Shown piece by piece: positions 1 through 44,486 of a stretch of DNA of 44,486 bases. Made by a program: the position numbers and the translations under genes. The stretch lies in NCBI RefSeq assembly GCF_001904745.1, contig NZ_MRCD01000074.1:1-44486 (forward strand), in the 5' to 3' direction. Numbering within the stretch: position 1 is the first letter of the stretch; each line of letters opens with the position of its first letter. The stretch comes from Calothrix sp. HK-06. GTDB lineage: Bacteria > Cyanobacteriota > Cyanobacteriia > Cyanobacteriales > Nostocaceae. The notes beneath the pieces were generated by a model. That model searched no databases and was not told where the DNA came from. It saw only the letters and a program-made list of their open reading frames with translations.

Positions 1-448
1 ATAATACTGAAATTTGATTAAAAATTATACAAGTGAATACTTGAGTATCAAAAAATCAAGGTATTTTTTATTTTTTGGTTGTCAGACAAAAAGAATTTCT
101 TTCGGCGTTGCATAATTGGGCAATATAACACCCATTAGATAATAGTACTATCAAATTAAACCTACGAAGTTAGTCAACAGGGCGCCACAATCTTATTTTG
201 GTGCCATTATTTAGCTTGCTCGTTGGCAAGGATAAAAGAGTCAGATGGGACTACTTCGTTTGGCAGTTAGCTAAAAAAATAATCTTGTAGCGTTACGCAT
301 CATCAATATTTGTAAGATATATGAGCAATAATAACGACAATCACGATTTTTTCGATAATTTAATAAGCCTTAAGATAAACTTTCTGTAAGGTGCGTGACG
401 CTACGAAAATATTTCAACGTAGCGATAAGACTCGTAGCGTCACGCACC
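1..448. other. Gene-free left edge with one inverted repeat
   Basis: No credible reading frame was seen. The stretch is AT-rich. It holds one GGCGCC site at 181 that can pair weakly with a GGTGCC about 20 bases further on, a single repeat arm near 289–299, and a complete family-1 inverted repeat at 391–447. The latter is described separately. Confidence 0.6.
391..447. repeat. Family-1 inverted repeat, copy A
   Basis: Perfect 15-bp arms: GTGCGTGACGCTACG at 391–405 and its reverse complement at 433–447, with a 27-nt loop. It sits directly behind the 3' end of the phosphate-binding-type gene. The TAG stop codon (449–451, minus strand) lies in the conserved CCTACG tail of the repeat. It may act as a transcription end or an RNA-stabilising hairpin; that role is inference. 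Confidence 0.85.
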
Positions 449-1504
449 CTACGGTCGAACTGCTGCGAAGCCAGCTTGCTCTATGGCGCCTTGCCCTTGG
501 TCGGTAAGTAATAGTTGGGTATAGACTTCACCTGCTTGCTGTTCTCTACCTTTGTTTTGTTTAATAATTACGAACAATTTATTAGTTATTGGATAGCTAC
601 CATTTTTGATGGCTTTGATATTGACCTGATTACGCTGATTTGGGCATTGATTAGGGGATATTAATGGTTCTTGGTAAGGAGGTATTAGTTCGGTGTTTGT
701 GCGACCTAATGGTAAAGGTTTTACAGTGCATTGAGGTACTACTGCACGAGCAGAAGCGTAATATATACTACCAGGAGTTTTGCTAACTTGGCGCAGTGCT
801 TCTGTAGTGGAGTTAACATACTGCACGTTGGAGTTAAGGGCGTCAGAGTTGAAAATTACTGCATCTGCGTCTTCTGGGCGCTGCGAGAAAGGTGTAATGG
901 GTAAGTTTGATCCACCTACTTGTTTCCAGTTAGTAATTTGCCCTCGATAAATCTGTTGCAACTGCTCAGTAGTTAACCCTGGTACGTTGAGTGAAGGGTT
1001 GACGACAACCGCTATTCCATCAGTCCCAATCTGATGTTGCGATAATGTAAAACCACGAGAATTAGCGATGGCATATTCGTCTGCTGTGAATGGACGGGCT
1101 GAGTGAGCGAAGTCTAATTGCCCATCAAGCAACATGCGAATACCTGAGTTAGAGCTAGCACTACCGTTATTTGGGTCTACATAGCGCAACTGTAGTTCGG
1201 GACGGGCATTTTGAATTTGAGAATCTACCAATTGACGAATAGGCGCCCAAGCTGTACTGCCACCATAGTTGAATGAGCCGGGTGGAACAGAGCCAATTGT
1301 CTTAAAAGTAGATGTCGCATCAATGGCAGTGTTTAAGGTTTGACCTCTTGAAGAATCAACATTGGTGCTAGTCAAGCGTGGTCTCAGCAGCCACCAGAAC
1401 AGTCCACCAATAACCAAAATTGTCAATACTTTGCCAATAATTAGACCTCTAAGAAAAAGTCCGATTTCTGCGTTAACTAAAGGTTTTTTTTGGTTTATAG
1501 TCAT
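449..1504 (-). CDS. Membrane-anchored PstS-like substrate-binding protein
   Basis: This is a periplasmic binding protein of the phosphate-binding (PstS/PBP-like) superfamily, anchored by one N-terminal membrane helix (about residues 18–40, GKVLTILVIGGLFWWLL). The binding domain follows: a VPPGSFNYGGSTAW segment near the start, DGIAVVVNPS in the middle, and YRGQITNWKQVGG, a typical PstS-superfamily hinge block. The frame is open to an upstream ATG at 1564, but the ATG at 1504 (MTINQKK) gives a normal short cytoplasmic tail before the helix and is preferred; neither has a strong ribosome site. It follows a Ser/Thr kinase gene on the same strand after about 120 bases. No pst permease or ATPase gene is nearby, so a sensory or phosphate-scavenging role beside the kinase is likelier than a full transporter. 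This is inference. Confidence 0.75.
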   Translation of the reverse strand: MTINQKKPLVNAEIGLFLRGLIIGKVLTILVIGGLFWWLLRPRLTSTNVDSSRGQTLNTAIDATSTFKTIGSVPPGSFNYGGSTAWAPIRQLVDSQIQNARPELQLRYVDPNNGSASSNSGIRMLLDGQLDFAHSARPFTADEYAIANSRGFTLSQHQIGTDGIAVVVNPSLNVPGLTTEQLQQIYRGQITNWKQVGGSNLPITPFSQRPEDADAVIFNSDALNSNVQYVNSTTEALRQVSKTPGSIYYASARAVVPQCTVKPLPLGRTNTELIPPYQEPLISPNQCPNQRNQVNIKAIKNGSYPITNKLFVIIKQNKGREQQAGEVYTQLLLTDQGQGAIEQAGFAAVRP

Positions 1505-1624
1505 ATTATTAGTGAATTTATTGCCCGAATTATGAAGTGGTACTAGGACAAAAAGATCTAACATTAGGATAGATAAAATAATAATATTATATATTATTAA
1601 TTAAAATACCACTAATGGTATATT

Positions 1625-2761
1625 TTATAACGTTAGGTGTTTTAGTAAAATTCTTGGAGTCGGCATGTTAGTTCGGGGTAAGGCATTTTGAGAGGGCGAT
1701 TGAGTTTGTTGGTCAATAAGGAATATTATGGAATTAAAAAATATATAGATTAAACCTGCTACTACTACACTAGTGATAGCACCAAGACTTAACCCGAACA
1801 ACACGATAGAGTTTTTTTTAGATGGCAAAGAAGAATCGAGTGTTTCAAGCTGCTGTAGTGTCGGTTCTAGAATTTGTTGCTGTGTAGCTTGCTGGTGGCT
1901 TGGGTAATCAGTAATATTTATAGGTATATTTTGTGATTTTGAAAAAGCCAACTGCTGCACCACTTGTAGTGCCTCAATAGCTGAGTGGTATCGCTCCCGA
2001 AAATCATATCGGGTCATTTTGTCTAAAACATCTGCCAACTCAGGACTTACTTGTACCAAATGGCGCCAGAGAATTTCAGCAGTATGTTCGTCTTTTTGCA
2101 GTTGCTGTGGCTTTAACCCTGTTAAGGCTTGAATTCCAATCATGCCCACAGCATAAATATCGCTACTCAGCTTTGGACTACCTGAAGCCTGTTCGCTAGG
2201 CATATAGCCAGGAGTACCTACAATTACAGTAACATGCGTTGTTTCCTGTGTACTCAAATAGCCAGTGCCTATTTGCTTAATTGCCCCAAAGTCAATTAAA
2301 ACAATCTTGCCATCGCTAAGGCGCCGGATTATATTGCTGGGTTTGAGGTCGCGATGAACGACATTATGTTGGTGGACGAACACTAATGGTTCTAAAATAC
2401 CTTGCAACAAGTCAATAACATAAGCTTCACTCAACCGCTGTTGAGGAGCTAGTTCCGAACTCAAAGGATGACCATCAATCAATTGCTGAACTAAATAAAA
2501 TTCCTGATTTTCTTGAAAGTGAGCTTGCAGGTGAGGAATTTGATCGTGAGTTCCCAAGCGATGTAATAGTTCTGCTTCCGAGTCAAATAGACGTTTGGCT
2601 ATCTTTAAAGTCTTAAGGTCACATGCCAGCGGTTTAAGTTGCTTAACAACACATTTTGCGTCAAAAAGTTTGAGGTCTACAGCAATGTAAGTGTGACCAA
2701 AGCTACCAGTGCCCAAATTTTGGACGATTTTGTAACGTCCGCCTAGTAATTGACCTAACAT
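1625..2761 (-). CDS. Serine/threonine protein kinase with C-terminal membrane helix
   Basis: A eukaryotic-type (Hanks) protein kinase that transfers phosphate from ATP to Ser/Thr. Visible motifs: glycine loop GTGSFG at 17–22, ATP-anchoring lysine K40, catalytic loop HRDLKPSN at 136–143 (D138), DFG at 157–159, and a GTPGYMPSEQ activation/P+1 block. The kinase domain ends near residue 270. A Gln-rich linker leads to one strongly hydrophobic segment (about 318–350) and a short polar tail, so the kinase should face the cytoplasm. There are no PASTA, WD40 or TPR repeats after the helix, making this a short member at 378 residues. The gene begins at the only sensible ATG (2761); no clear ribosome site was seen. 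It lies upstream of the PstS-like gene on the same strand, probably in one transcript. Confidence 0.9.
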   Translation of the reverse strand: MLGQLLGGRYKIVQNLGTGSFGHTYIAVDLKLFDAKCVVKQLKPLACDLKTLKIAKRLFDSEAELLHRLGTHDQIPHLQAHFQENQEFYLVQQLIDGHPLSSELAPQQRLSEAYVIDLLQGILEPLVFVHQHNVVHRDLKPSNIIRRLSDGKIVLIDFGAIKQIGTGYLSTQETTHVTVIVGTPGYMPSEQASGSPKLSSDIYAVGMIGIQALTGLKPQQLQKDEHTAEILWRHLVQVSPELADVLDKMTRYDFRERYHSAIEALQVVQQLAFSKSQNIPINITDYPSHQQATQQQILEPTLQQLETLDSSLPSKKNSIVLFGLSLGAITSVVVAGLIYIFFNSIIFLIDQQTQSPSQNALPRTNMPTPRILLKHLTL

Positions 2762-2989
2762 AATCGTAATCAGTTATGGATATTATAAATTTTCTATAAA
2801 GACAGAAAAATGCTGGTTGACACAATATATGTTAGTACAATAATGCTAAGTGTAATCCAAAAAAGTATGAAAAATATCTAGTACCAGCGAAAGGTGCAAG
2901 TTAATACAGGTGCCTACTTTTGACTTCAAACACTATACTTCAAAGCATACAGGGGCAGACATGACAAAATATTGATGAAGATGTAAAAA

Positions 2990-3182
2990 GTGGAAAATTT
3001 ACTCAAAGCTCGTTTCGGCGCGTTTGACACGCTCTTTTATTAAAATTATTCCATCACTATTAGCGCTACCCACTGAGGAATATACTCGCTTGTTGCTGGA
3101 ATTATCTGGTGTATCGAGCAAAGAGTTAATTAATCGTTTTAGCTTGTTTTTAATTTTATTAATCTTGTGGGATGGGCTTTAA
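2990..3182 (+). pseudogene. Remnant of an Rpn/DUF4351-type C-terminus
   Basis: Two abutting frames read like the C-terminal tail often seen on cyanobacterial Rpn-family (PD-(D/E)XK, transposase-like) or DUF4351 proteins. The first frame from 2990 gives VENLLKARFG and then hits a stop near 3043. The next frame continues as IIPSLLALPTEEYTRLLLEL and then ELINRF, ending at a stop at 3180–3182. The expected order in the family is LLKARFG, a short helix, LPxxEYTxLLLxLS, then ELxxRF. One frameshift separates the halves and no N-terminal nuclease part was found. Assigned from memory of the family pattern, without a search. Confidence 0.5.
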
Positions 3183-3658
3183 GAATGCCCCGTCCTAACA
3201 TAGTACTATACATATATTATCAAGCGATAGCAGAAAAGAAGTTAAACCAGTTGGGATACAGAAAAATTAAGTGTTGTGGCAACAACAGGCGCCTTACAGA
3301 AACATTCTCCTCAATCATCGACAGTGAAGCTTCCCCAGACAAAGATAAGCGCACAATACAACCACATCGGCGCCGTACCATATTCGTAAACAGGGGTACG
3401 GCAAAGGTTTAAAGTCATGGCGTTACGTATGGATTAAAGAAACTATAATCTTATAAAGGATAAATACTACATCTACGAAGTTAGCGAGCAAACCCAAGCA
3501 TAGTAAATTTTTAAATCATTATCAGACATGATTAAAAATGTAAATAAGTCTTTGGATAGATGCTGTCTTTCTTTGATTTCTTTGATATAGTAATAATAAT
3601 TTATTTTCTGGAATATACGTTTAAGTGGCATTAGAATAATTTTTCTAGGAATGTAAAG
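3183..3658. other. Intergenic DNA upstream of the large hybrid kinase
   Basis: About 480 bases with no supported gene. An 81-codon frame here (3167–3412) has no protein-like composition and no ribosome site. The stretch has two GGCGCC sites and is AT-rich towards the kinase, where its promoter should lie; no convincing -35/-10 pair was picked out. Confidence 0.5.
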
Positions 3659-3694
3659 ATGACTAATCTTGAAAAAACAACGATTTTAGTGTAA
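3659..3694 (+). pseudogene. Stub of a response-regulator start
   Basis: An ATG with an upstream AGGA-type ribosome site (near 3650) opens an 11-codon frame reading MTNLEKTTILV and stopping at 3692–3694. KTTILV is the usual first beta strand of a receiver domain, which would continue with VDD. Two bases after the stop the ATG of the large hybrid kinase begins. The simplest reading is a deletion that removed the body of a receiver gene and left its start. The ribosome site may now serve as a translational lead-in to the kinase. Confidence 0.45.
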
Positions 3695-3696
3695 TT

Positions 3697-12258: not shown

Positions 12259-12386
12259 ATCAAGAATATCAAGGGGGGTACAATCTCATATAGCTGCTAA
12301 TGCAATATAGCATTAGTACTAACTCAAATGAACCTACCCAAAGAAATACAAAAACCGTTATATATATCAAAACGGTGCGTATTCAT

Positions 12387-12447: not shown

Positions 12448-12490
12448 CTACCCAAAAAATGCAAAAACCGTTACATATATCAAAACGTAG

Positions 12491-13282: not shown

Positions 13283-13294
13283 TGTAGATTACTT

Positions 13295-16896: not shown

Positions 16897-17070
16897 ATGA
16901 CTTTAGTCACGGATTCTCAATATATGATAACGGCGCCTGTCGCAGAAGATTATAAAGTAGACGCCACACCAAGACAGCTAGCAACAGTGCGGGTTGCGGA
17001 TGGTGTAGAAACTGGCGCCGTTTCAACAAGTGCCGAGATGCTTCGGCGCCAAGGGTTTTGTCTGACATAA
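16897..17070 (+). CDS. Doubtful 57-codon frame
   Basis: ATG at 16897 gives MTLVTDSQYMITAPV, then a hydrophilic stretch ending LRRQGFCLT. Three GGCGCC sites lie inside it. The start codon sits in a small inverted repeat (CTAAAGTCA at 16878–16886, TGACTTTAG at 16898–16906). There is only a weak GAG ribosome site and no recognised family. It may be a decayed fragment; listed because it is the longest protein-like frame in this gap and lies upstream of the Cys-rich peptide gene. Confidence 0.2.
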   Translation: MTLVTDSQYMITAPVAEDYKVDATPRQLATVRVADGVETGAVSTSAEMLRRQGFCLT

Positions 17071-17414
17071 TCTGGGCTACTGATACATATTAAAACAGCA
17101 GACGATAAAGATGAGTCACTGGCACCGGCTTACTTACCACTCACTACTTACTCATGAGAAATACAGTGTTAATGTTAAATATTTATCTACTTAATTTGAA
17201 ACTGCATAACTTTGAATTGGCATCACCTATAAGTAAGTAACAAGGTTAGAACTCAATACTAATCAGGTTTTAGGAGAAGGGGTAAAGTATAAAAAGCTGA
17301 TGAATACAAAGTTTTTTCTTTTTACCTTTTACTTAACACCTAAATAATATTGTATAAGTTCTTTACAATTAAAAATTCAGTACACAAACACAACAAGTAT
17401 TCGGAGAATTAATT

Positions 17415-17756
17415 ATGCCTAATGTAACTGTAGACAACTCAAATGACGAAACAACAATGGCTAATGCGACATTGCAACAATTACAAAAGGAAGTTGCTTT
17501 CGCAATGATGGAAACTTTGAATGACTCAAAATTCACCGACTTATTGGCAAAGTATAGTTTATTGGAAAATGGGGTAGTCAAGATTAAATGTGAAATCAAT
17601 AAAAATAAAATTCAATCTAATCAAGCTCAAAATATGGACTTAGAGCTTAAAGATGCTTTAGACCAAATTCCAGAAAGCCAAGTTCTGCTTTTAGATTGCT
17701 GTATGTGTCTAAAACTCTGTTGTGTTTCCGTAGGTACTTGTGCTTGCTGTAAATAA
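17415..17756 (+). CDS. Small protein with extreme Cys-rich C-terminus (RiPP-precursor-like)
   Basis: A 113-residue protein with a sharp two-part design. Residues 1–94 are hydrophilic and helical, with a leader-like segment (LQQLQKEVAFAMMETL, then FTDLLAKYSLLENGVV). The last 19 residues (95–113) hold eight cysteines: C95, C96, C98, C102, C103, C109, C111, C112. This looks like a ribosomal-peptide precursor (helical leader plus Cys-rich core) or a small metal-binding protein. There is no double-Gly cleavage site and no modification or export enzyme gene in the window, so the RiPP reading is inference; it is not a classical SmtA metallothionein. The start has a good GGAG ribosome site with 8-base spacing. 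The gene stands alone between gene-poor stretches, which fits an independently transcribed orphan precursor. Confidence 0.7.
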   Translation: MPNVTVDNSNDETTMANATLQQLQKEVAFAMMETLNDSKFTDLLAKYSLLENGVVKIKCEINKNKIQSNQAQNMDLELKDALDQIPESQVLLLDCCMCLKLCCVSVGTCACCK

Positions 17757-17890
17757 CCCTCCTGCGTGCAGTAGTCCATATCATTAATTCTAAGGTTTTG
17801 CCTGTAACGGATATAACTTATTTAACGGATGATTTATTTGTTACAAACAATACCAGGGGGCTTCCAAATAAAAAATCTCCACTCCTAACT

Positions 17891-18019
17891 TATGGGGTGG
17901 CGTTGCTGATTTGATGCATGAAGACTACTTTGCGCTACGTTCAAACCCTTGTAGAGACGCGATTAATCGCGTCTCTACATTTGAATTCATACCTTGGTTC
18001 AGCAACGCCTATGGGGTGG
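17891..18019. mobile_element. MITE-like insertion with terminal inverted and direct repeats
   Basis: Terminal inverted repeats GGCGTTGCTGA (17899–17909) and TCAGCAACGCC (17999–18009) enclose about 110 bases. The direct repeat TATGGGGTGG occurs at 17891–17900 and again at 18010–18019, as expected for a target-site duplication; its last two bases overlap the inverted repeat on the left. Removing the element restores a continuous repeat similar to one near 13828–13885. No transposase is encoded, so it would need one in trans. Confidence 0.6.
17951..17978. repeat. Family-2 palindrome (GTAGAGACG type), copy 1
   Basis: A perfect 28-bp palindrome: GTAGAGACGCGATT followed directly by its reverse complement, with no loop. 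The outer GTAGAGACG / CGTCTCTAC arms recur at 30468 and 33102. Confidence 0.85.
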
Positions 18020-18221
18020 GTATCTTTTGGAAGTTTCTAAGCGCACACTCATTGTCGCAGAGCATAGCCAGATTCTTGCTTTTCAGAGCGGGAGAGCGGA
18101 ATGATTCGGTTGTATTACCTCACCAGAGTGTATGTGCGGCATTAAATTTAGGACAGTCGCAAGATATAATTTACCTATAAATGATATTTTCTTTAGAGAG
18201 GTACAATCTTGAGAATAAATC

Positions 18222-20534
18222 ATGACTGTTTCGAGACATTGCATTCCAGAACTAGCAATTGCACTATTAATGTGTACTATATTTTGCCCTAAGTTAATTA
18301 ATGCCGAAATTGTTCCCGACACAACTCTACCTAATAATTCTAGTATCAGGCGCCAGGATAATGTAGAAATTATTGAAGGCGGAACCCAAGTGGGAAGTAA
18401 TTTATTCCACAGTTTTGAGCAATTTTCTATACCTTTTGCTCAAAAAGCATATTTTAATAATACTATAAATACTCAAAATATTATTACCCGCATTACAAGC
18501 AGGAACATTTCTAATATTAATGGTATAATTGGCGCCAACGGTACAGCAAATTTATTTTTAATAAATCCGAATGGAATTATTTTCGGTAAGAATGCTGCTT
18601 TAGACATTGGCGGCTCATTTTTAGCAACTACAGCAAGTAGTATTAACTTTGCTGATGGAACGAAGTTTAGTGCAATACAACCCCAAGCAACACCTCTACT
18701 AACTGTGACAGCTCCTATTGGATTGCAATTTAATGCAACTGCTGCACCGATTCGTAATCAATCCCAAGCATCTATCAATAATGCAGTTAATATTTTAAAT
18801 CAACCTACTGGTTTACAAGTACCTACAGGTAAAACCTTAGCACTGATTGGTGGTAATGTAATGCTAGACGGTGGCAATTTAACCGTTGAGTCAGGACAAG
18901 TCGAATTAGCTGCTGTTGAGGATAATAGTTACGTAAGTCTTAACTCAAATGATAAAGGTTTGGTTTTTGGATATGGAGGTGTAAAAAATTTCCAGAATAT
19001 TCAACTAATTGATGGTAGTGCTAATGGTTCTGAAATTTCATCGTCTGTAGATGTTAGTAGTAAGAGCGGCAGTGGTAGTATTCAAGTAAGAGGCAATGTA
19101 GTAGAATTAATAGGCAATTCTACTACATTAATAAGTTTTAACCAAAATAGTGTAAATGGTAGAGATTTAAATATTTATGCGAGGAAATTAATTGTTCGAG
19201 ATGGAGCGCAAATAAATAGTTCAAGTTTAGGTGAAGGTGCGACCGGAAATATAACAATAAATGCACTTGAATCAGTAGAAATTATTGGAGGCTTTGGTGA
19301 ATTCCCTAGTACCTTGAATAGTAGTGCTAGTGCTGTTGGAAAAGCAGGTAATCTAACCATAAATACTGGTAGATTACTAGTTAAGGATGGAGCCGTGATA
19401 TCTACTAGCTCATTAGGCTTTTCAAACGAAGGCTCTAAATTGGTAATTGCTACAGGAGAAGGAGGAAATTTAACAATAAATGCTTCCAATTCTGTAGAAT
19501 TAATTGGATACTCCCCAAGCTTCCCAAGCAGTTTGTTAGCCATTACACAAGGTTCTGCAAATGCAGGTAACTTAAACATTTTTACAAAACAATTAATCGT
19601 GAGAGATAAAGCTGAAATTAACGTCAGTAATATTTCCTCTAGAACAATTAATTTAGGTAATGCCGGAGACCTTAATATTACTGCCGATTCTATACTTCTA
19701 GATACTCAAGGCAAACTTCTTTCTGAAACTGACTCAGGAAATGGAGGCAATATTAACCTTCAGTTACAAAATTTATTAATAATGCGTCGCAATAGTCAGA
19801 TTTCCACTACTGCGGGTAAAGCGAGCGAGAGCGGAAATGGTGGTAATATAAAGATTAATATTCCTGATGGTTTTGTTGTAGCAGTTCCGAAGGAAAATAG
19901 TGATATTATGGCAAACGCATTCACTGGAGATGGCGGGAGAGTAGAAATTAATACTAATGGTATTTTGGGAATAAAACCACGTAGTCGGGATGAATTATTA
20001 AAACTTTTATCTACGAATGACCCGAATGAGCTAAATCCGCAAAATCTCCCTACGAACGATATTTCCGCAATATCTCAGGTCAACCCGAATTTAAATGGTA
20101 AGTTAATTATTAATACTCCAGATATAGAAGTTTATAAAGGAATAGTAGAGTTACCATATACACCACTGAGTACGCACGTTTCTCAAGTTTGTAAACTGAG
20201 TAGAGATGGTATTCAAAACGAGTTTACTTATACCAGACGTGGTGGCTTACCTCCCTCACCGTGGGGAGTGTTAAGAAGCAGTCTTCCGGTCAACCTGGAT
20301 TGGGTATCGCTTGAGGAAAATAGAGAAAGAGCAAGAAATGGAGAGAGGGGAGTCAAGATTCCAATAATTAAACAACCTATACAAGCGCAAAAAGATAAAA
20401 CAGCAAATCCAATTGTAGAAGCTAGTGGTTGGAAGGTTGATGGTAGCGGTCAAGTGTATTTAGTTGCTAGTACACAAGATAAAGATATTCAATTTCAATA
20501 TCTTCCACCACAATCTAATTTGTGCCCTAATTAA
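18222..20534 (+). CDS. Two-partner-secretion exoprotein (TpsA, filamentous hemagglutinin N-terminal domain)
   Basis: A 770-residue secreted beta-helix protein. It has a signal peptide (MTVSRHCIPELAIALLMCTI, cleavage likely after LINA near residue 28), then the TPS secretion domain (about 30–270) with EGGTQVGSNLFHSFEQF and the hallmark NPNGIIFG at 115–122. Asn/Gly-rich beta-helix repeats follow up to about 640. The C-terminal block (GWKVDGSGQVYLVAS) is shared by many cyanobacterial TpsA proteins. Such proteins cross the outer membrane through a TpsB (POTRA plus beta-barrel) partner and act in surface adhesion or contact functions. No tpsB gene is in the window, so the partner must be elsewhere. 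ATG 18222 gives the complete signal peptide. Only two GGCGCC sites occur, both in the first 310 bases, fewer than in the surrounding DNA. Confidence 0.9.
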   Translation: MTVSRHCIPELAIALLMCTIFCPKLINAEIVPDTTLPNNSSIRRQDNVEIIEGGTQVGSNLFHSFEQFSIPFAQKAYFNNTINTQNIITRITSRNISNINGIIGANGTANLFLINPNGIIFGKNAALDIGGSFLATTASSINFADGTKFSAIQPQATPLLTVTAPIGLQFNATAAPIRNQSQASINNAVNILNQPTGLQVPTGKTLALIGGNVMLDGGNLTVESGQVELAAVEDNSYVSLNSNDKGLVFGYGGVKNFQNIQLIDGSANGSEISSSVDVSSKSGSGSIQVRGNVVELIGNSTTLISFNQNSVNGRDLNIYARKLIVRDGAQINSSSLGEGATGNITINALESVEIIGGFGEFPSTLNSSASAVGKAGNLTINTGRLLVKDGAVISTSSLGFSNEGSKLVIATGEGGNLTINASNSVELIGYSPSFPSSLLAITQGSANAGNLNIFTKQLIVRDKAEINVSNISSRTINLGNAGDLNITADSILLDTQGKLLSETDSGNGGNINLQLQNLLIMRRNSQISTTAGKASESGNGGNIKINIPDGFVVAVPKENSDIMANAFTGDGGRVEINTNGILGIKPRSRDELLKLLSTNDPNELNPQNLPTNDISAISQVNPNLNGKLIINTPDIEVYKGIVELPYTPLSTHVSQVCKLSRDGIQNEFTYTRRGGLPPSPWGVLRSSLPVNLDWVSLEENRERARNGERGVKIPIIKQPIQAQKDKTANPIVEASGWKVDGSGQVYLVASTQDKDIQFQYLPPQSNLCPN

Positions 20535-20740
20535 TACGCTACCACAAGCAACACCGACTTCAAACAAATAAGTGCAAGTCGAAATAACAGACCAAAACTG
20601 TATGAAATTTACTGCTATTCTTAATCCAAAAAGCTGGAAGATAGCATGTGATAAATTATTATGCTTAAACAGCTTACCCTAATTAGTTTAGTCAAAGGCG
20701 CCTGACGGGTTTATGCAATCGGCAATATCTTTACAAAAGT

Positions 20741-23700
20741 TTATTTCGTTTGTTCTATAGCCCCTAAAGATATTAAAATATTTTTATGAGCATCTGTTAA
20801 TCCAGTAGTATTGTTAATATTCATACCTTCATACTGTCGCATACACCTCAAGGTTTGAATACATTCACCTTGCAAGTTCCATAATTTTATCGTTTGGTCT
20901 TCGCTACCGCTAGCTAATAAACAATTATCGGTGCTAATTGCAATTGTCCATACAGCTTTATCATGCCCTGTAATGGTTCTGATATTTTCACCTGTGTTTA
21001 CATCCCACAGTTTGATTGTACAGTCATCACTACAACTTACTAATATTTTACCATCTGGACTAAAGGCGAGTGAGCGAATTCTAGACGAATGTGCTGATAT
21101 TGTTTGTATACATTCTCCTGTGCTTACATCCCACAGTTTAATAATTTTATTACAGCTACCACTGGCTATAATATCAGCATTAGAACTGTAAACTACGCAG
21201 CAAACACTATCTTCATGTCCCGTAAGTGTTTGTAAACAAGTACCATTATTTACATCCCAAAATTTGATAGTTTTATCATCGCTAGCACTAACAAGCGTAG
21301 TCCCACTGTTGTTAAAAGTAACCGATTTAACACGGTTTTCATGTCCAACGAAAGTATGTAAACAGGCACCTGTATTAGAATCCCATATTTTTACTGTATT
21401 GTCACGACTACCACTAGCTAAAATTTCACCTTGAGGACTAAATGCGACTGCATACACCCAAGCTGTATGTCCCCGCAGTGTTTGCTGACATTCACCTTCG
21501 TAATTCCATAGTTTTATAGTACTATCATCGCTACCACTCGCTAACAAACGAATATGAGCGGGTGCAAAGGTAAGGGTAGAAATTAAGTTATCATGTCCTT
21601 CTACGGTTAAAGTGCATTTTTGAGTTTTCATATCCCAGAATCTAATTTTTTGGTCTTGAGAACTGCTAACTAACGTTTGACTGTCGGGACTAAAAGCAAG
21701 CGATAATATCCAGTTACTATAACCTTTTAATGTTTTTAAGCAGCGTTGTGAGGTTATATCCCAAAGTTTGATGGTTTGGTCTTCACTGATACTTAGTAAA
21801 GTCGAATTATTTGGGTGTAAATCAACTAACCAAATGCGCTGTTGATGTTCACATAATGTTTGTAGACATTCGAGCGTTTCTACATTCCAAATTTTAATAG
21901 TGTTATCTTCGCTGCCAGTAATTATAATTTTATCATCGTGACTGAATGTAACTGACCAAACCAAGCTATGATAATTTGGTAGTGTTTGAATACATTCACC
22001 GTTGGATATATCCCAGAATTTGACGGTATTATTATCACTTCCGGTTACTAAAATTTTACCACTATGACTTAACGCAATTGCTAGGCGCCAGTTAATGGCG
22101 ATATTAAAAATTTGTGTACAACCAGTTACAATATTCCACAGTCTTACAGTCTTATCGGTGCTGGCAGTAATTAATATTTGTTCTTCAGGATGAAAAGCGA
22201 CAAAGGTTAAATTATCGGTATGTCCAGAAATTATTTGCAAACAATCCCCAGTGGAGACATCCCATAATCTAATTGTTTTGTCGTTGCTCCCACTAGCTAA
22301 AAGATTACCCTTAGGGTTAAAAGCAAGAGTTTGTACTGAGGATGTATGACCTCGAAGGATTTGCAAGCATTGTCGGGTTTCGGTATTCCACAACCTAATT
22401 GTGTTATCGTTACTACCACTAGCCAGAATTTTACCATTTGGATGAAAAACTAGCGACTGTATCCACGCACTATGACCGTTAAGTTGAAATAATTGTTGGA
22501 TGTTATCAACTTCCCAAAGATAGATTTGATTTTCGATTGCAGTTGCGAATAATTTACCTGTAGGGTTAAATTTGGCTCCAAGTATACTACCTAATGTTTG
22601 GGTAAATACACTTTTTTCAAAATTGCAATTAGCAAAATTGGTTTGTTGTAAGTTGATTCCTTCTAGGTTTGCTTGACAAATATTTAAATGCGAAAAATCA
22701 TAATTATTGAGTTCTATATTTAGTTGTCGCAGCAAATTAATAATATTTCCCGCTGCATATCCTGGTTGAGGTAGTTTAAAAGATTTAAGATGAGCTAAAA
22801 TTTGATTTAAATAGATTTGGACATTTGCTTTAGTTAGCCAAAAATCTAATAATTTATCTGCGATTGGTTGGAGAATAAATAGAATTTGAGCATTTCTTGT
22901 GTAATCTTGGTTTTGAACTTGGAGAAAAGCATATTTATTTAGAATATCAATTTGACCTAAATAAATCTCTTGAGTAACTTTTTCTATAAAGTCTTCAGTT
23001 ACATACTCCATTAAAACTGGTTGCTGAGTAAATTTACCTCCTTGATTTTCAATTAAACAACGCGATTGTAAAGACTCTAAAGCTGTAATTAAATCTCGTG
23101 GTTTAACAATATCAATAATATCGCTTTGTAAATTTTTGATAGACACCCATTCTCGATTAATTGCTAACCAATACATAAGTTGTCTTTCCAACATTGATAG
23201 ACGTTCAAACTGTCGATCTAGCAAATCAAAAATATCGTTACAAAGAATTGTGCCCGCTTGCAAAAAATCACTGATATTACCAGCAAATAATTCTATAATA
23301 GTGTTTGCGGCAATCTTTAACGCTAACGGATTTCCCCCATAGGACTCAACCAAGTTATGTATTTCTGTTACTGATGATGATAAACCTTTTTGTTTGAGTA
23401 TCGATTCTCCCTCAGTATAACTTAACCCTTTTAAACTTAACACACGCACAGGTAAATTTTCACCTACTTTCGCATTTAATCCTTTGGGTTTTTCACGACT
23501 AGTAACTAAAACACAACTTCGATGAAGCGTATCTCCAACACATCGCAAAATTTGTCCATATCCTGCTTGTTTATCACCATCTAAAACCGATTCAAAATTA
23601 TCCAAAACAACCAAACACCGCAACTCACGTAAACAATTGATGAATTGTGAAATTCGCTTATCTAAAGAATTAGCAATAACTATTTTATCTTCTTTTGTTA

Positions 23701-25114
23701 AAAACCCAATTAAATCGGTCAACAACTCTTCTACAGATGGAGCATTTCGTAAACTACGCCAAATTAAACAATCAAACTCATTTTCAACTGATTCTACTAA
23801 CTTCACAGATAAAGCAGTCTTTCCAATTCCACCCATTCCAATAATAGTAACTAATCGGGAATTATCATTTACCACCCATTGCTTAAGAGTGTTAATTTCA
23901 TCATTCCGTCCGTAAAAAGCAGAAACATCAATTGCATCTCCCCAATCTTGACGTTTATTTTTAATTTGAATTGCTGAACATTTTTCCTTTAAACTTGCCC
24001 AAGTCGGTGGTTCTTCTGCAGGATTAATAAAAATTACTGGCAACCAACTCGCACCAGGAAAATTATCTTCTAATCCTTGTAATCTGCGTCGTGCTTGTTG
24101 GACTGATATATATAAAGACTCTTGTGCAAATGCAAATGCTTGTAAAAAATAATTAAAAAATTCCTCTGCAACGCGATTTGGCACAGGTTCACGCATCACA
24201 ATTGTTGTTGGTAAATTCAATTTTTCCAAACCTTGTGCTAAACCCAAACCATTGCATGAATTAAAAATGACTATTTTTAAACCCTTTTCAATCGCTGCTT
24301 TCAAAGCTTCTGTCAACTGCTCAATAGTTAAACTATTATTAGTCAGATTCTCGTTAATATAAATTATGCCCGTTTCTTGCTCAGTTTGACTATGCCCAGC
24401 AAAAAACAACATATCCCAACCTTGAGAATCCCAAAGTCTATCGTTAAATTCTTGCCGCGTCGGCTTGACAACGAACTCTACTTCTGCATCTGGTAAACTT
24501 TCTAAAAACTTTTGTTCTTGTTCTAAATCAATTCCTTGAGAATTACCTAAAATTGCCAGAATTCTGACTTGATTTTTGGAAACTTGCGGCGATTGTAAAT
24601 ATGAGGTACTTTTATACTCTATTCTAGCAAAGGAAAGTTCTGCGCGTGGATAATCTTCAAAAAAATTGCAACAATGCCAAGGTAATTTTTGAATGGTAAT
24701 ATCTTGAGTTTCGATAATTACTCTAATTTCATCAGCAGGATTAAGTGCAGCACGTAGTTGTCTACTAATGTTGATAACCCCAGGTGAATCTAACCAATTA
24801 TTAATACCGAGTTCTAACTGCTGGCACAAATCATAGAAATCCACCACAGAAACATTTACAATATCACCTTCCTCAATTTCTAGTTCATCATCCTCAATAC
24901 TTCTAGTGGGTGCAACAAATCCCAGACGACCTTGTAAAGTTTCATAAATCATTCGCCACTTTCGATACAATTCTACCAAATACGGTGCAGGTGCCAGACT
25001 ACCGATAAACTGTTGTGGACGAGGATTATTTGCCGAGCGTAACCCAACAGTAATAACAGGGAACCCCTCGAATAAATTACCATACCCCAGATTGATGACA
25101 ACTGAATAAACCAT
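20741..25114 (-). CDS. CHAT–NB-ARC–WD40 STAND protein
   Basis: A 1457-residue, probably cytoplasmic, signal-transduction ATPase. It has an uncharacterised N-terminal domain (about 1–170), a CHAT caspase-like protease domain (about 180–370) with the dyad H241 (FFAGHSQ) and C287 (FNSCNGLG), and an NB-ARC/STAND NTPase with GMGGIGKT (426–433) and Walker B LVVLDNFE (501–508). A winged-helix/helical region follows, then a short pentapeptide-like stretch (LNICQANLEGINLQQTNFAN) and 14 WD40 repeats (typical units ILASGSNDNTIRLW) to the end, enough for two seven-bladed propellers. In known STAND proteins the propeller senses, the NTPase oligomerises and the effector domain acts; here the effector would be a protease. 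All catalytic residues are present. An immune or cell-death role is inference. It contains only one GGCGCC in 4.4 kb. ATG 25114; no clear ribosome site. Confidence 0.9.
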   Translation of the reverse strand: MVYSVVINLGYGNLFEGFPVITVGLRSANNPRPQQFIGSLAPAPYLVELYRKWRMIYETLQGRLGFVAPTRSIEDDELEIEEGDIVNVSVVDFYDLCQQLELGINNWLDSPGVINISRQLRAALNPADEIRVIIETQDITIQKLPWHCCNFFEDYPRAELSFARIEYKSTSYLQSPQVSKNQVRILAILGNSQGIDLEQEQKFLESLPDAEVEFVVKPTRQEFNDRLWDSQGWDMLFFAGHSQTEQETGIIYINENLTNNSLTIEQLTEALKAAIEKGLKIVIFNSCNGLGLAQGLEKLNLPTTIVMREPVPNRVAEEFFNYFLQAFAFAQESLYISVQQARRRLQGLEDNFPGASWLPVIFINPAEEPPTWASLKEKCSAIQIKNKRQDWGDAIDVSAFYGRNDEINTLKQWVVNDNSRLVTIIGMGGIGKTALSVKLVESVENEFDCLIWRSLRNAPSVEELLTDLIGFLTKEDKIVIANSLDKRISQFINCLRELRCLVVLDNFESVLDGDKQAGYGQILRCVGDTLHRSCVLVTSREKPKGLNAKVGENLPVRVLSLKGLSYTEGESILKQKGLSSSVTEIHNLVESYGGNPLALKIAANTIIELFAGNISDFLQAGTILCNDIFDLLDRQFERLSMLERQLMYWLAINREWVSIKNLQSDIIDIVKPRDLITALESLQSRCLIENQGGKFTQQPVLMEYVTEDFIEKVTQEIYLGQIDILNKYAFLQVQNQDYTRNAQILFILQPIADKLLDFWLTKANVQIYLNQILAHLKSFKLPQPGYAAGNIINLLRQLNIELNNYDFSHLNICQANLEGINLQQTNFANCNFEKSVFTQTLGSILGAKFNPTGKLFATAIENQIYLWEVDNIQQLFQLNGHSAWIQSLVFHPNGKILASGSNDNTIRLWNTETRQCLQILRGHTSSVQTLAFNPKGNLLASGSNDKTIRLWDVSTGDCLQIISGHTDNLTFVAFHPEEQILITASTDKTVRLWNIVTGCTQIFNIAINWRLAIALSHSGKILVTGSDNNTVKFWDISNGECIQTLPNYHSLVWSVTFSHDDKIIITGSEDNTIKIWNVETLECLQTLCEHQQRIWLVDLHPNNSTLLSISEDQTIKLWDITSQRCLKTLKGYSNWILSLAFSPDSQTLVSSSQDQKIRFWDMKTQKCTLTVEGHDNLISTLTFAPAHIRLLASGSDDSTIKLWNYEGECQQTLRGHTAWVYAVAFSPQGEILASGSRDNTVKIWDSNTGACLHTFVGHENRVKSVTFNNSGTTLVSASDDKTIKFWDVNNGTCLQTLTGHEDSVCCVVYSSNADIIASGSCNKIIKLWDVSTGECIQTISAHSSRIRSLAFSPDGKILVSCSDDCTIKLWDVNTGENIRTITGHDKAVWTIAISTDNCLLASGSEDQTIKLWNLQGECIQTLRCMRQYEGMNINNTTGLTDAHKNILISLGAIEQTK

Positions 25115-25168
25115 TGTTTGTGCAATAAAGCCGAGGGTGAAAGTGTTCTCTTCTTAAATAATCGTAAT

Positions 25169-25183
25169 AGAAACCCGGTTTCT
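25169..25183. repeat. Family-3 palindrome (AGAAACC type)
   Basis: AGAAACCCGGTTTCT, a near-perfect 15-bp palindrome of a type common in cyanobacterial intergenic DNA. Related copies lie at 34183–34201 and in 39661–39728. It sits in the divergent gap upstream of the CHAT gene. Confidence 0.7.
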
Positions 25184-25265
25184 TTGTATACATGAGGGGT
25201 CAAACCTACCACCCGTTAAATGTTATTAACAATCAGAAATAACTCCTAGGGAGGATGTAAATATT

Positions 25266-25310
25266 ATGACAATTACTCAACATATAGGTTGTTTTATTAA
25301 ACGCAAGTAA
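25266..25310 (+). CDS. 14-residue leader-type frame
   Basis: ATG at 25266 follows a strong GGGAGGA ribosome site with 8–9 base spacing and gives MTITQHIGCFIKRK. The stop at 25308–25310 is only two bases before the ATG of the next small frame. The strong ribosome site belongs to this mini-frame, so the downstream gene may depend on translational coupling. No family is recognised. It could also be the truncated start of a lost gene. Confidence 0.35.
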   Translation: MTITQHIGCFIKRK

Positions 25311-25312
25311 TT

Positions 25313-25504
25313 ATGAACGAGCATACTCAAGAACCCAAGACAACTCAAGCAGAGGAAGAAGAAACGAATGATTCATCATCTCGCTCACCAGGAGTAACTG
25401 ACAGAGGAGCGAGCAATACAGAAAAAGCATCAAAAGATACGGAAATTAAACAACCTACTCAGCCAAATCAAACCAAATCATCGTCAACAGAAGATAAAAA
25501 TTAG
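25313..25504 (+). CDS. Small disordered hydrophilic protein
   Basis: A 63-residue frame made almost entirely of Glu, Lys, Thr, Ser, Gln and Asn (for example AEEEETNDSSSRS and TQPNQTKSSSTEDKN), so probably intrinsically disordered. It begins two bases after a 14-codon mini-frame with a strong ribosome site and has none of its own, which suggests coupled translation. No known family was recognised. It is divergent from the CHAT gene and convergent with glmM. Moderate doubt remains that it is translated. Confidence 0.45.
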   Translation: MNEHTQEPKTTQAEEEETNDSSSRSPGVTDRGASNTEKASKDTEIKQPTQPNQTKSSSTEDKN

Positions 25505-25584
25505 AATCATTACTTATTGGAGTATTTTACCCATTTTTGAGGCGCCGCACTATATAATAGAACTGGCGAGGACACCCATTCCAC

Positions 25585-25614
25585 ATAAAAAAGGCGCCCT
25601 TATAAAAAGGCGCC
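25585..25614 (-). terminator. glmM terminator built from two GGCGCC sites
   Basis: Read on the minus strand just after the glmM stop: GGCGCC, an 10-nt AT-rich loop, GGCGCC, then TTTTTT. The two GGCGCC sites (25609–25614 and 25593–25598) pair as a 6-bp all-GC stem followed by a U tract, a textbook Rho-independent terminator. Confidence 0.75.
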
Positions 25615-25636: not shown

Positions 25637-27082
25637 TTAACAAGCCAAATGTTCTTGAGCGGCAGCTACTAAAGTATCAGTCCAATATTGTGTCAGTTCA
25701 GCATCTTCAGCTTCGACCATGACACGAATTAAAGGTTCAGTACCCGATGGACGAACTAACACTCTACCGCTATCACCCATTGCGGTTTCTGCTTTCGCAA
25801 TAGTATCTATTAATGGTTGACATTCTTGCCAACTCATGCGTTTATTACGGTCTTCGACACGCACATTCTTTAATATTTGTGGATAAGTAGTAAAGCTTTT
25901 ATTTACGAGTTCGCTAAAAGTTTCTCCTGACTCACGAACTAAAGCGGCAATATGTAACGCAGTTAGTAAACCATCACCAGTAATACCATAATGACGGCAA
26001 AGGATATGTCCTGATTGTTCGCCACCTAGCATTCCACCAGTTTTTAACATTTCTGCTTGTACATATTGGTCACCTACAGCAGTGCGAGTTAAAACACCAC
26101 CTAGTTTATTCCATGCACGCTCAAATCCTAAATTTGCCATGACGGTAGAAACTATAAGCTTTTCGGGGAGTTGTTGTTTATAAACTAAACTATTACCCCA
26201 TAAATATAGTATATAGTCACCATCAACAATACGTCCGGTGTTGTCAACAGCTAAAACTCTGTCTGCATCACCATCGAACCCAAAACCCATATCGGCGCCG
26301 TTTTCGACGACAACTTGCTGTAATAATTCTAAATGGGTAGAACCACAGTTAACGTTAATTCTATCACCGTCGGCTTTGTTATGCATACAAATTACTTCGG
26401 CGCCCATTGGCTTGAAAACCGAGGCACCTAAACCAACTGCGGCGCCCCAAGCTAAGTCTAATACTATTCGCATTCCCGTAAAGGGAGTATTTCGTAAAGG
26501 TTTTATTAAAGATTCGGCATATTCTGATACCATCTCTGGACGCGTATAGTGACGACCACATTTTGCATGTCCAACAACAGCGACTGACTCACCTCGTAGT
26601 CCAACTTCAATTTCTGCTTGTAACTCTTTTGATAATTTTCCACCCAAGGCGCCAAATACTTTTATACCATTATCCTCTGGTGGATTATGGCTGGCAGAAA
26701 TCATCACACCACCAATTGCAGGACTAATACTTGTTAAATAAGCTACACAAGGAGTTGGACATAAACCTAAATACCAAACCTCAACACCAGCTGCGGTTAA
26801 ACCAGCACTTAAAGCCATTGCTAGCATATCGCTAGAGTTACGAGAGTCTTGACCCAATATAACTGGACCTGGGTTGATGGCGTGACTACGTAGTACAATA
26901 CCAGTCCAGAAACCAATTTGTAACGCTAAGGGCGCCGTTAATAAATCTCCAACTCTTCCGCGAATACCATCAGTTCCAAATAAGGGAGTTGTTGGTATAG
27001 CAGCATTTAGCCCTAAATTGCTCATGCTTGAGGAAGATATTGCACTTTTATCAGCTTGAGGCTTCGTTAAAAAAGAGACCAT
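25637..27082 (-). CDS. glmM: Phosphoglucosamine mutase
   Basis: Converts glucosamine-6-phosphate to glucosamine-1-phosphate on the route to UDP-N-acetylglucosamine for peptidoglycan and lipopolysaccharide. A 481-residue alpha-D-phosphohexomutase. It shows the [10 protein letters not shown] start block, active-site phosphoserine S131 in [12 protein letters not shown], magnesium loop FDGDADR at 269–275, the sugar-binding GGEQSGH and the phosphate-binding [13 protein letters not shown] near the end. The GEQSGHIL spacing favours GlmM over phosphomannomutase/phosphoglucomutase. It has about 30 residues before the conserved GTDG compared with a handful in E. coli; ATG 27082 has GGAG 10 bases upstream, supporting the longer start. 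It ends at a terminator made of GGCGCC pairs and stands alone. Confidence 0.93.
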
Positions 27083-27442: not shown

Positions 27443-28159
27443 ATGAGTAGTAACTTAGCATCCAAATTACGTGTAGGTACCAAAAAAGCCCATACGATGG
27501 CGGAAAACGTTGGTTTTGTCAAATGCTTTTTAAAAGGTGTGGTGGAAAAAAACTCTTACCGGAAGCTAGTAGGCAACTTCTACTTCATCTACTCAGCGAT
27601 GGAAGAGGAGATGGAAAAACATAAAAATCACCCCATCGTTTCTAAAATCAACTTTCCCCAACTTTATCGCAAGCACACACTAGAGCAAGATTTAGCATAC
27701 TACTACGGCGCCAACTGGCGTGACCAAGTGAAGTTGTCATCCGCAGGAAGTGCATATGTACAACGCATTCGTGAAATATCAAACTCAGAACCAGAATTAT
27801 TAATTTCTCACTCTTACACTCGTTACCTTGGTGACTTGTCGGGGGGACAAATTTTAAAGGGTATTGCACAAACTGCAATGAACCTCACAGATGGCAACGG
27901 AACAGCGTTTTATGAATTTGCCGATATTTCTGATGAGAAAGCTTTCAAAGTTAAGTACCGTGCAGCTTTAGACGAAATGCCACTTGATGAAGCGACTTGT
28001 GACAAAATCGTTCAAGAAGCAAACGATGCTTTTGGTGCCAACATGAAAATGTTCCAAGAGTTAGAAGGTAATTTAATTAAAGCTATTGGAATAATGGTTT
28101 TCAACTCCCTAACCCGGCGCCGTTCTCGCGGAAGCACAGAACTCGCGACTGCTGAATAA
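27443..28159 (+). CDS. ho1: Heme oxygenase (biliverdin-forming)
   Basis: Cleaves heme to biliverdin IX-alpha, CO and iron with electrons from ferredoxin. Biliverdin feeds phycobilin and phytochrome chromophore synthesis, so this is a key pigment gene in a cyanobacterium. The 238-residue length matches cyanobacterial HO1. Evidence: axial histidine H17 in KKAHTMAEN, SYRKLVGNFYFIYSAMEEEM, SHSYTRYLGDLSGGQILK with the distal-helix glycines, and the C-terminal NDAFGANMKMFQELEGNLI. The family start SSNLASKLRVGTKKAH fixes ATG 27443; the ribosome site is weak (GAG). A long palindromic terminator follows. Upstream twin palindromes suggest specific control. Other cyanobacteria have a second, microaerobic copy; the sequence alone does not separate them firmly. 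Confidence 0.95.
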   Translation: MSSNLASKLRVGTKKAHTMAENVGFVKCFLKGVVEKNSYRKLVGNFYFIYSAMEEEMEKHKNHPIVSKINFPQLYRKHTLEQDLAYYYGANWRDQVKLSSAGSAYVQRIREISNSEPELLISHSYTRYLGDLSGGQILKGIAQTAMNLTDGNGTAFYEFADISDEKAFKVKYRAALDEMPLDEATCDKIVQEANDAFGANMKMFQELEGNLIKAIGIMVFNSLTRRRSRGSTELATAE

Positions 28160-39625: not shown

Positions 39626-39628
39626 TAC

Positions 39629-39749
39629 CTCACATCTTGCAGCATTCTCAATAAGCTTAAAGAAACCGGGCTTCTGTACGAAAAATCAACGTTTTATAGC
39701 AAAGTTTTTGTCAAGAAGCCCGGTTTCTAGGCCTGGTGCAAGATGTGAG
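39629..39749. mobile_element. Nested inverted-repeat (MITE-like) element
   Basis: Outer perfect 13-bp arms CTCACATCTTGCA (39629–39641) and TGCAAGATGTGAG (39737–39749) enclose inner perfect 15-bp arms AGAAACCGGGCTTCT (39661–39675) and AGAAGCCCGGTTTCT (39714–39728). The inner pair belongs to family 3. The element ends 10 bases from the stop of a gene-tail remnant. No clear target duplication was found. Confidence 0.65.
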
Positions 39750-39759
39750 CTACCTTAAC

Positions 39760-43645: not shown

Positions 43646-44095
43646 TTAATATCGAACGACTTCTTCAATAAAATGATGAGTTTCGTCTAAATACCAGCTT
43701 TTCACATCCCTAGCTTTTCCTTCATAGACAGAAACAATAATATAGGAATATGATTGCCAAGCATACTCACGGTCAAACTCAGAAGGAACCGCTAAATTAT
43801 CAGTGTGCGAATGAAATATCCCAATAATATTCAATGAATCTTGTCTTGCTTGTTTTTGCGCTTCCATCAAATCTCTAGGTGCAATTGTATACCTTCGATT
43901 ACGACTTGCTTCTTGATTTATAAACAAATCAGGTATGTCTTGCGTATTCCAAGCATTCTCTGTAGTAATAACTTTGACGCATTCCTTATTGCTCCCCGAA
44001 GCTACACCAAGTAAAATACCACAGCACTCTTCAGGATAGGCGCCTTCTGCATGGTTGTAAATAATTTGTAAATGTGAGGGAGTAAGTTGTATCAT
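43646..44095 (-). CDS. JAMM/Mov34 (M67-family) metallopeptidase
   Basis: A 149-residue stand-alone zinc isopeptidase-like protein. The JAMM set is complete: a Glu in PEECCGILLG (E22 or E23), then HSHTDNLAVPSEFD with H95, H97, S105 and D108. Bacterial single-domain JAMM proteins usually cut the C-terminus of ubiquitin-like sulfur-carrier proteins (ThiS/MoaD/CysO type) in cysteine or cofactor synthesis; no carrier or E1-like gene is in the window. Start ATG 44095 is the only one near the first strand (IQLTPSHLQII). It lies 27 bases behind the S23-type gene on the same strand and may share its transcript. Confidence 0.88.
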   Translation of the reverse strand: MIQLTPSHLQIIYNHAEGAYPEECCGILLGVASGSNKECVKVITTENAWNTQDIPDLFINQEASRNRRYTIAPRDLMEAQKQARQDSLNIIGIFHSHTDNLAVPSEFDREYAWQSYSYIIVSVYEGKARDVKSWYLDETHHFIEEVVRY

Positions 44096-44122
44096 GTGGA
44101 GTTTATTAAAAAATATTACAGC

Positions 44123-44482
44123 CTAAAATTTATTATTGAATTTTGTAATTAACTCATTTATCGCTTCTCTCACGTCCACAGCTTTACTTACCAAACGGTC
44201 ATAATCTTCAATTCGTAACATTTTTAACTCGTAACTGAGTAAAAGAAAGTATTGAACTTCTATAGCATTATCGCTTGCCAATTCCAAATAATTAATCTTT
44301 TCTTCATAATCTTCTCTATCATATCCCTGAGCAATTTTAATTGGAATAGCTGAACAAGCTAAACGTATTTGCTGTGTCAAACCCAAAATTTCCACCTCTG
44401 GAAACTCTTGTGTAGCTTGATAGACAGCAACTGTTAACTCATGGACTTTTTCCCATTCTTTAATTTCTCGAAAGTCGCTCAT
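44123..44482 (-). CDS. Four-helix-bundle protein (S23/IVS family)
   Basis: 119 residues matching the small four-helix-bundle family first seen encoded in 23S rRNA intervening sequences. The pattern is clear: DFREIKEWEKVHELTVAVY, FPEVEILGLTQQIRLACSAI, IAQGYDREDYEEKINYLELA and a final helix (REAINELITKF). In free-standing form the function is unknown; some relatives form pentamers and associate with retroelements. No rRNA sequence surrounds it. ATG 44482 is only four bases from the window edge, so upstream context is not visible. It precedes the JAMM gene on the same strand. Confidence 0.85.
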   Translation of the reverse strand: MSDFREIKEWEKVHELTVAVYQATQEFPEVEILGLTQQIRLACSAIPIKIAQGYDREDYEEKINYLELASDNAIEVQYFLLLSYELKMLRIEDYDRLVSKAVDVREAINELITKFNNKF

Positions 44483-44486
44483 TTGG

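Follow-up and report, generated by a model that had tools for sequence, protein, structure and literature searches.

Why a single palindrome occurs thousands of times in many cyanobacterial genomes has long been open; Xu, Lawrence and Durand have reportedly carried out a study on selection at HIP1. HIP1 itself (GCGATCGC), with its GATC and CGATCG methyltransferases, resembles the system described here in being palindromic, genome-wide, present at about one site per kb and linked to methyltransferases (Elhai 2015), but the word and the methyltransferase family differ, and HIP1 is nearly absent from the genus under study. The closest precedent is Elhai 2015 (PMC4390886), which identified GGCGCC in Calothrix PCC 7103 and D253 as an alternative HIP; the replacement of HIP1 by GGCGCC is therefore already known, and the word, the genus, the loss of HIP1 and the presence of GRCGYC-type methyltransferases are common to both accounts. 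What we add is a genus-wide view (seven species rather than one genome), measured turnover kinetics, a methyltransferase copy that belongs to a conserved locus and lacks a detected nuclease, and a possible second case. The restriction-modification systems BsaHI, HgiDI and HindVP (GRCGYC) likewise have a C5 methyltransferase with the family recognition-loop pattern, whereas in this genus no nuclease was detected and GGCGCC is enriched rather than depleted.

The window, which is the whole 44,486-bp stretch analysed (1..44486; all coordinates are given without strand), holds 76 GGCGCC sites, the first at 181 and the last at 44039, against 2.2 expected from base composition and 3.7 from a first-order Markov model, and both GCGATCGC and CGATCG were counted at zero. 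With our own choice of open reading frames, 56 sites are genic (1.57 per kb) and 20 intergenic (2.25 per kb). Their spacing is random (coefficient of variation 0.98, against 0.98 ± 0.10 for uniform placement), and regular spacing was rejected on that ground. A site-poor stretch at 17051..25540, picked post hoc, has 4 sites where the density elsewhere in the window predicts about 17; the longest single gap in the whole window is unremarkable (P 0.16). Genes for a TPS-domain protein and a WD40-repeat protein lie in this stretch.

In 444,486 bp of the genome, no other 6-mer exceeds its first-order expectation by as large a factor as GGCGCC (705 versus 39, or 18-fold, with the runner-up at 4.5-fold), and the reversed word, CCGCGG, does not occur. 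The flanks vary, with some preference only (CAGGCGCC at 30-fold and GGGCGCCA at 10-fold), so taking the hexamer as the repeat unit is fair. The whole genome (9,990,453 bp) contains 15,449 GGCGCC and 6 copies of the reversed control; GCGATCGC occurs 88 times and its own reversed control 66 times, HIP1 being depressed across the 9.99 Mb. GGCGCC is, in short, a GC-rich palindrome greatly over-represented genome-wide, as an alternative HIP should be. The initial annotation had counted about 75 sites where some two are expected by chance, spread through genes and gaps, with the hexamer as the unit and the usual HIP1 octamer absent; the counts bear out each of these statements, the first-order Markov comparison of 6-mers in 444,486 bp ranks GGCGCC first, and neither GGCGCC near expectation nor abundant GCGATCGC was seen genome-wide.

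The organism is a separate species within the filamentous genus of Calothrix PCC 7103, and the swap extends across that genus: it is found in all seven sampled genomes, each a different species, and in none of the 210 others in the family, so the note's view of a lineage-specific palindrome replacing HIP1 was correct. The seven genomes carry 7,475-20,380 GGCGCC each, and the 210 others no more than 1,053; the corresponding ranges for GCGATCGC are 31-163 and 30-8,803. Five of five named loci of the clade have 32-49 GGCGCC and no HIP1, and 75 named loci outside it have 0-5 GGCGCC and 2-26 HIP1. This distribution contradicts Elhai's "not in clades", by which HIP1 alone would persist in clades.

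All seven genomes also encode a putative C5 methyltransferase of BsaHI/HgiDI type, assigned to GRCGYC by homology, with the best copy at least 81% identical. The intact copy in the window's genome matches PF00145, the C5 methyltransferase family (E 7e-65), the best copies of the genus form a single clade (100/99) among 35 sampled homologues, and the gene neighbourhood is conserved in 7/7; at the conserved locus, the window's genome has only a contig-end fragment of the gene. The recognition-loop pattern of the GRCGYC family, which we wrote as xRx-(G/A)-x9-T(I/L/V) from the text of PMC2413257, is present in 35/35 relatives and 0/11 other C5 methyltransferases, and within GRCGYC the base methylated by M.BsaHI is the central C (PMC2413257). 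The RE_HindVP endonuclease gave no match in the seven genomes (E 1e-20), nor does one adjoin the methyltransferase gene in any of them; RE_HindVP-family neighbours occur at four of six outgroup methyltransferase loci, and genomes with both methyltransferase and nuclease are depleted in GGCGCC. The genus hence appears to share a GRCGYC-type methyltransferase without a detected nuclease, which supports the suggested tie to a different, orphan methyltransferase. Such an enzyme is not sufficient for GGCGCC to build up, because among 55 other genomes with homologues, which show either depletion or no HIP-sized excess, 17 carry the methyltransferase, lack a detected nuclease and contain no more than 277 GGCGCC.

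Sites in the window differ among the aligned genomes. At 25593..25598, GGCGCC is found here and in G060, and GGCACC in G061 and G065; at 26399..26404, GGCGCC is again found here and in G060, and GGCACC in G061, G065 and G062; at 27707..27712, GGCGCC is shared with G060 and G062, and GGTGCC stands in G061 and G065. The one-off site GGCACC at 26423..26428 is shared with G065, where G061 has GGCGCC, G060 CGCGCC and G062 AGCCCC. Most changes swap C and T at the central C: of 26 single losses that were polarised, 21 go to GGCACC or GGTGCC, and central transitions number 24 against 12.3 expected, with all other changes at 6 against 22.9. None of 80 occurrences of GGTGCC/GGCACC was common to all other aligned genomes, compared with a fraction of 0.38 for the median hexamer type.

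Turnover at the central C is accelerated in both directions. At GGYGCC, the gain rate is 44 (95% interval 34-97, from the NNYGNN fit; two intervals in the GYG fit disagreed with their point estimates) and the loss rate 2.95, whereas other NNYGNN contexts give 0.64 and 1.23 and other GYG contexts 0.82 and 1.18. Relative to other YG contexts, restoration of GGCGCC is thus accelerated some 55-70 times and loss some 2.5 times; two-state rates for site positions 1 and 2 are poorly determined. Fast restoration is confined to the full GGYGCC, the half-site contexts having a gain/loss ratio of 0.23. These data comprise 48,234 hexamer columns, mostly from one chromosomal block. Of the 55 positions where at least one genome has GGTGCC/GGCACC, seven have GGCGCC in no genome, and one of the seven has GGCACC in four of five genomes.

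We consider it probable, and the best reading of these results, that mutation and repair coupled to methylation hold the sites. The swap from HIP1 to GGCGCC would date back to the ancestor that members of the Calothrix PCC 7103/Dulcicalothrix genus share. A nuclease-less, solitary chromosomal methyltransferase of BsaHI/HgiDI/HindVP type, with a predicted target of GRCGYC including GGCGCC, would methylate the central C (GG-mC-GCC); deamination of this base would cause loss to GGTGCC/GGCACC, and a repair tied to the methyl mark would return near-sites to GGCGCC at a rate far above that of ordinary T-to-C change, with the result that sites accumulate and persist. The repair step may be the G-mC-directed mismatch repair of Elhai's model (PMC4390886), whose MutH-like G-mC reader is hypothetical, or another enzyme. 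Local protection by mismatch repair was rejected, since the substitution rate shows no fall toward GGCGCC sites in the alignments. A fuller version is more tentative: the mark placed by the nuclease-less methyltransferase, through its linked repair, would both expose the site to decay and rewrite near-sites some 50-150 times faster than T-to-C change, the word would be built and held genus-wide by mutation and not selection, and an independently acquired relative of the methyltransferase would have begun a similar process in the distant cyanobacterial genome G284.

That genome is a possible second case of GGCGCC build-up. G420 (2,493 GGCGCC) was rejected as one, because it retains HIP1 and its enrichment over 54 kb is only 1.7-fold. 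Other genomes with high GGCGCC counts, such as G232 and G255, have high reversed-control counts too.

Selection, whereby GGCGCC sites are functional (for example as a mismatch-repair or chromosome signal) and their loss lowers fitness, seems unlikely to us. It would account for the roughly fourfold deficit of non-central changes and for the 14 of 30 aligned sites kept by the sister furthest away, at about 18% divergence, but it would need to act on some 15,000 sites, and its strong form would be expected to lower the loss rate, unless methylation increases mutation by a much larger factor; instead, central loss exceeds background, gain is up about 70-fold, and constraining gain to a value near 5 worsens the fit by about 28 log-likelihood units. 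The loss-rate objection is weakened if single-genome variants are deleterious polymorphisms: in mixed C/T patterns among the five close genomes, T is confined to one genome in 22 of 31, and with one genome per species fixed changes are inseparable from polymorphism or read errors.

We are equally doubtful that a very-short-patch-type enzyme turns T:G mismatches within GGTGCC into C:G and overcorrects, as has been argued for Dcm/Vsr sites in E. coli. The exchange does fall at the expected methyl position, and the restriction of fast restoration to the full word also fits; however, unlike in Dcm/Vsr repair, no Vsr endonuclease was found in the seven genus genomes (Pfam Vsr, PF03852, 0/7, and 1/217 in the family, in a search of the Vsr family), and T:G repair alone leaves unexplained why, of the eight remaining single-letter neighbours of GGCGCC, six are likewise less frequent than in outgroups.

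It is extremely improbable that the excess simply follows from codon usage, base composition or restriction avoidance: although 33 of the 56 coding sites in the window lie in frame as GGC GCC (Gly-Ala), codon and composition bias are ruled out by the window counts, by the 18-fold excess alongside the near-absence of CCGCGG and by a density between genes not lower than in genes, and restriction avoidance would deplete GGCGCC.

Mutation and repair are favoured over selection as the cause because the acceleration runs both ways at the presumed methylated base. With a changed word, a matching lone methyltransferase and seven species at graded distances, this genus makes the process by which such palindromes arise measurable.

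The word GGCGCC occurs 76 times in the window (44,486 bp, 38% GC), where base composition predicts 2.2 copies and a first-order model 3.7, bearing out the excess far above chance reported in the initial annotation. The usual cyanobacterial octamer HIP1, GCGATCGC, is absent, as had been claimed: both it and CGATCG gave zero in a word count of the 44,486-bp window. Sites lie in genes and gaps alike (56 genic and 20 in gaps, by our own choice of ORFs), and their spacing is random. Beyond the window, GGCGCC has the top ratio among all 6-mers in a 444,486-bp sample of this genome (705 vs 39 expected), and the whole assembly (9,990,453 bp in 243 contigs) holds 15,449 copies, with 6 of the reversed control word CCGCGG; HIP1 is not abundant there either, with 88 copies of GCGATCGC. 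In the same 444 kb (L120-L139 plus the window), CGCGCG is over-represented 4.4-fold (2.6-fold vs a second-order model), GATC stands at 0.12 of expectation, and the several palindromes at zero include CCGCGG, TTCGAA, GTGCAC, GTCGAC, CGTACG, CCCGGG, and CCATGG.

Within the window, positions 17051-25540 hold 4 GGCGCC vs ~17 expected from the remainder (Poisson P 2e-4, for a stretch picked after seeing the data), and the longest single gap between sites is not unusual (P 0.16). This stretch carries a TPS-domain gene and a WD40 gene of 1,457 residues, which are perhaps recent arrivals with sites still to accumulate. A sequence search also found a dispersed repeat of ~125 bp at 39626-39753 (-), with at least 24 further places in the genome at 95-99% identity and copies in the sister genomes G060 and G065.

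In a search for named relatives of glmM from the window, the 80 best of 377 matches include Dulcicalothrix desertica PCC 7102, Calothrix PCC 7716, and PCC 7103 at 97%, NIES-4105 at 92%, and a Calothrix MAG at 86%; the next stand at 78% or below. When these 80 named loci (4-21 kb each) were compared, all five clade loci lacked HIP1 and had 32-49 GGCGCC, and the remaining 75 had 0-5 GGCGCC (none in 68) and 2-26 HIP1. Of 217 family genomes sampled, the seven of the Calothrix PCC 7103/Dulcicalothrix genus contain 7,475-20,380 GGCGCC (~1.15-1.71 per kb) and 31-163 GCGATCGC; the 210 others have at most 1,053 GGCGCC, and 206 have at least 1,117 GCGATCGC, the four HIP1-low genomes being G182 (30), G194 (535), G191 (574), and G184 (990). 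The window's genome differs from its sister G061 by ~4.6% in aligned DNA. Genome and locus counts together make the swap from HIP1 to GGCGCC genus-wide within the sampled genomes, which supports the lineage-specific palindrome proposed earlier.

The suggested tie to a different methyltransferase also gains support, from a C5 enzyme of the BsaHI/HgiDI type (predicted target GRCGYC; METHYLTRANSFERASE), hereafter the MTase, in 7/7 genus genomes. A Pfam search of the genus gave 89 PF00145 matches, which were fetched and clustered, leaving out three weak fragments; two clusters, of ~320 and ~370 residues, are represented by a full-length protein in each of the seven genomes. The ~320-residue family matches 62/217 family genomes at E 1e-60, its best copy reaching at least 81% identity in every genus genome and at most 73% in 55/210 others. 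In a tree of 35 homologues, which leaves out one fetched locus with no usable frame, the seven best genus copies form one clade (support 100/99), and five more genus copies sit elsewhere. The recognition-loop pattern for GRCGYC enzymes, as described by Neely and Roberts (2008, PMC2413257), fits 35/35 relatives and 0/11 other C5 methyltransferases.

The MTase neighbourhood is common to all seven genomes, with an adjoining RuBisCO-like gene and, in the six where the other flank is present, a GHL10/SLH gene (a short piece in G064); both names are Pfam matches from G060. The window's genome contains this copy as contig-end fragments alone (C29 and C207), plus an intact relative on C60. Its MTase-family copies, several partial, include L247 (C60) and L246 (C29), and a PCQ motif adjoins the start of one piece and the end of family likeness in another. 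A second C5 methyltransferase of 661 residues occurs in the neighbourhood in three genomes (L014 and L246 of C29 in the window's genome, G060, G061); the 436-residue frame beside it has no Pfam match in G061, and 222 of its residues in the window's genome have no Pfam, NCBIfam, or PADLOC match.

RE_HindVP, the usual partner nuclease, neighbours the MTase in 4/6 outgroup loci (three assigned via Pfam; the fourth, in two pieces, via BLAST clustering). A search of the 217 family genomes found relatives in 40 (by our reading, 17 uninterrupted and near full length, 23 with stops or partial) and in 0/7 of the genus, so the genus MTase looks, from gene content, to be solitary. Outside the genus, median GGCGCC is 5 with MTase and nuclease (n=38), 52 with MTase only (n=17), and 37 with neither (n=153), a grouping that omits two nuclease-only genomes; the first is lower than neither (P 1e-7) and than MTase only (P 9e-5), in tests that ignore kinship. 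By MTase presence alone, medians are 7 (with) vs 36 (without), and permutation stratified by genus gives P 0.019. This depletion fits restriction by the full system, present or past, and therefore supports the MTase specificity. Among the 17 MTase-only genomes, GGCGCC reaches 277 at most, alongside 6,611 HIP1; thus, a nuclease-free MTase alone is insufficient for HIP-level GGCGCC.

Turnover was followed by aligning stretches of six sister genomes to the window plus 140 kb from contig C1 (48,234 hexamer columns with at least four genomes, a small share of the genome). Of 26 polarised single-base GGCGCC losses, 21 lead to GGCACC or GGTGCC; against trinucleotide-matched rates, central transitions are in excess (24 vs 12.3 expected) and changes of every other kind in deficit (6 vs 22.9). 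None of 80 GGTGCC/GGCACC occurrences is common to all other aligned genomes, a persistence score of 0 vs 0.38 for the median hexamer type (12 other types of 1,903, with 30-46 occurrences each, also score 0). Among 55 such positions, GGCGCC is present in at least one genome at 48 and in none at 7, at one of which four of five genomes have GGCACC. Under a two-state model fitted on the tree, GGYGCC has a T-to-C rate of 44 (95% 34-97) and a C-to-T rate of 2.95, vs 0.64 and 1.23 for other NNYGNN; with a star tree the GGYGCC rates are 44 (34-74) and 2.94. Compared with other GYG contexts, the gain ratio is 56 and the loss ratio 2.6, and half-site contexts behave as background. Coding-site flips in mechanically called ORFs are synonymous in 34 cases and protein-changing in 11. 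The six one-off neighbours retaining central CG are rarer in the clade than in the 75 outgroup loci (for instance, CGCGCC 0.39 vs 1.37, GCCGCC 0.35 vs 1.45), those with central C changed to A or G are roughly level, and GGTGCC is commoner (1.45 vs 0.30), in a rough comparison where the sites themselves inflate what is expected in the clade and outgroup values may be affected by HIP1.

Gain and loss are thus both sped up at one base of GGCGCC, the position that PMC2413257 gives as methylated by M.BsaHI. Selection alone predicts modestly faster gain and slower loss, whereas both are faster. The turnover fits an account in which deamination of a presumed m5C at the central base would destroy sites and efficient restoration would return near-sites to GGCGCC. 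A Vsr-like enzyme is a possible agent of restoration, but Vsr was found in 0/7 genus genomes; coupling of restoration to mismatch repair, as Elhai proposed (PMC4390886), fits the wider scarcity of neighbour words.

The arrangement may have recurred. In a phylum sample of 386 genomes, the distant G284 has 9,489 GGCGCC (reversed control 2,450); three genus-mates have 304-343 (controls 172-367). An MTase search of 11 genomes at E 1e-30 found a relative in G284 alone (54%). Over 115 kb of this genome (54% GC), GGCGCC is 4.1-fold and AGCGCC/GGCGCT 5.9-fold over expectation, so its word is RGCGCC, not strict GGCGCC; HIP1 is at chance level (2 in 115 kb). Of five frames tested at its MTase locus, none is RE_HindVP and one matches a type I restriction N-terminal domain. 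We regard G284 as a lead, not proof. In a genus-mate of G284, the 20 kb of locus L271 (G230:C1:1-20000) contain no HIP1, and their top 8-mers are GGCC-based (GGCC 1.9-fold), possibly another alternative HIP.

The GGCGCC finding itself is a rediscovery, since Elhai (2015, PMC4390886) already identifies the alternative HIP of Calothrix PCC 7103, and of the D253 fragments, as GGCGCC, credits PCC 7103 with two GRCGYC-type MTases, and proposes G-mC-directed mismatch repair as the cause. To this published headline we add fixation of the word across the genus, an MTase apparently without its nuclease, the kinetics of site turnover, and a possible recurrence.
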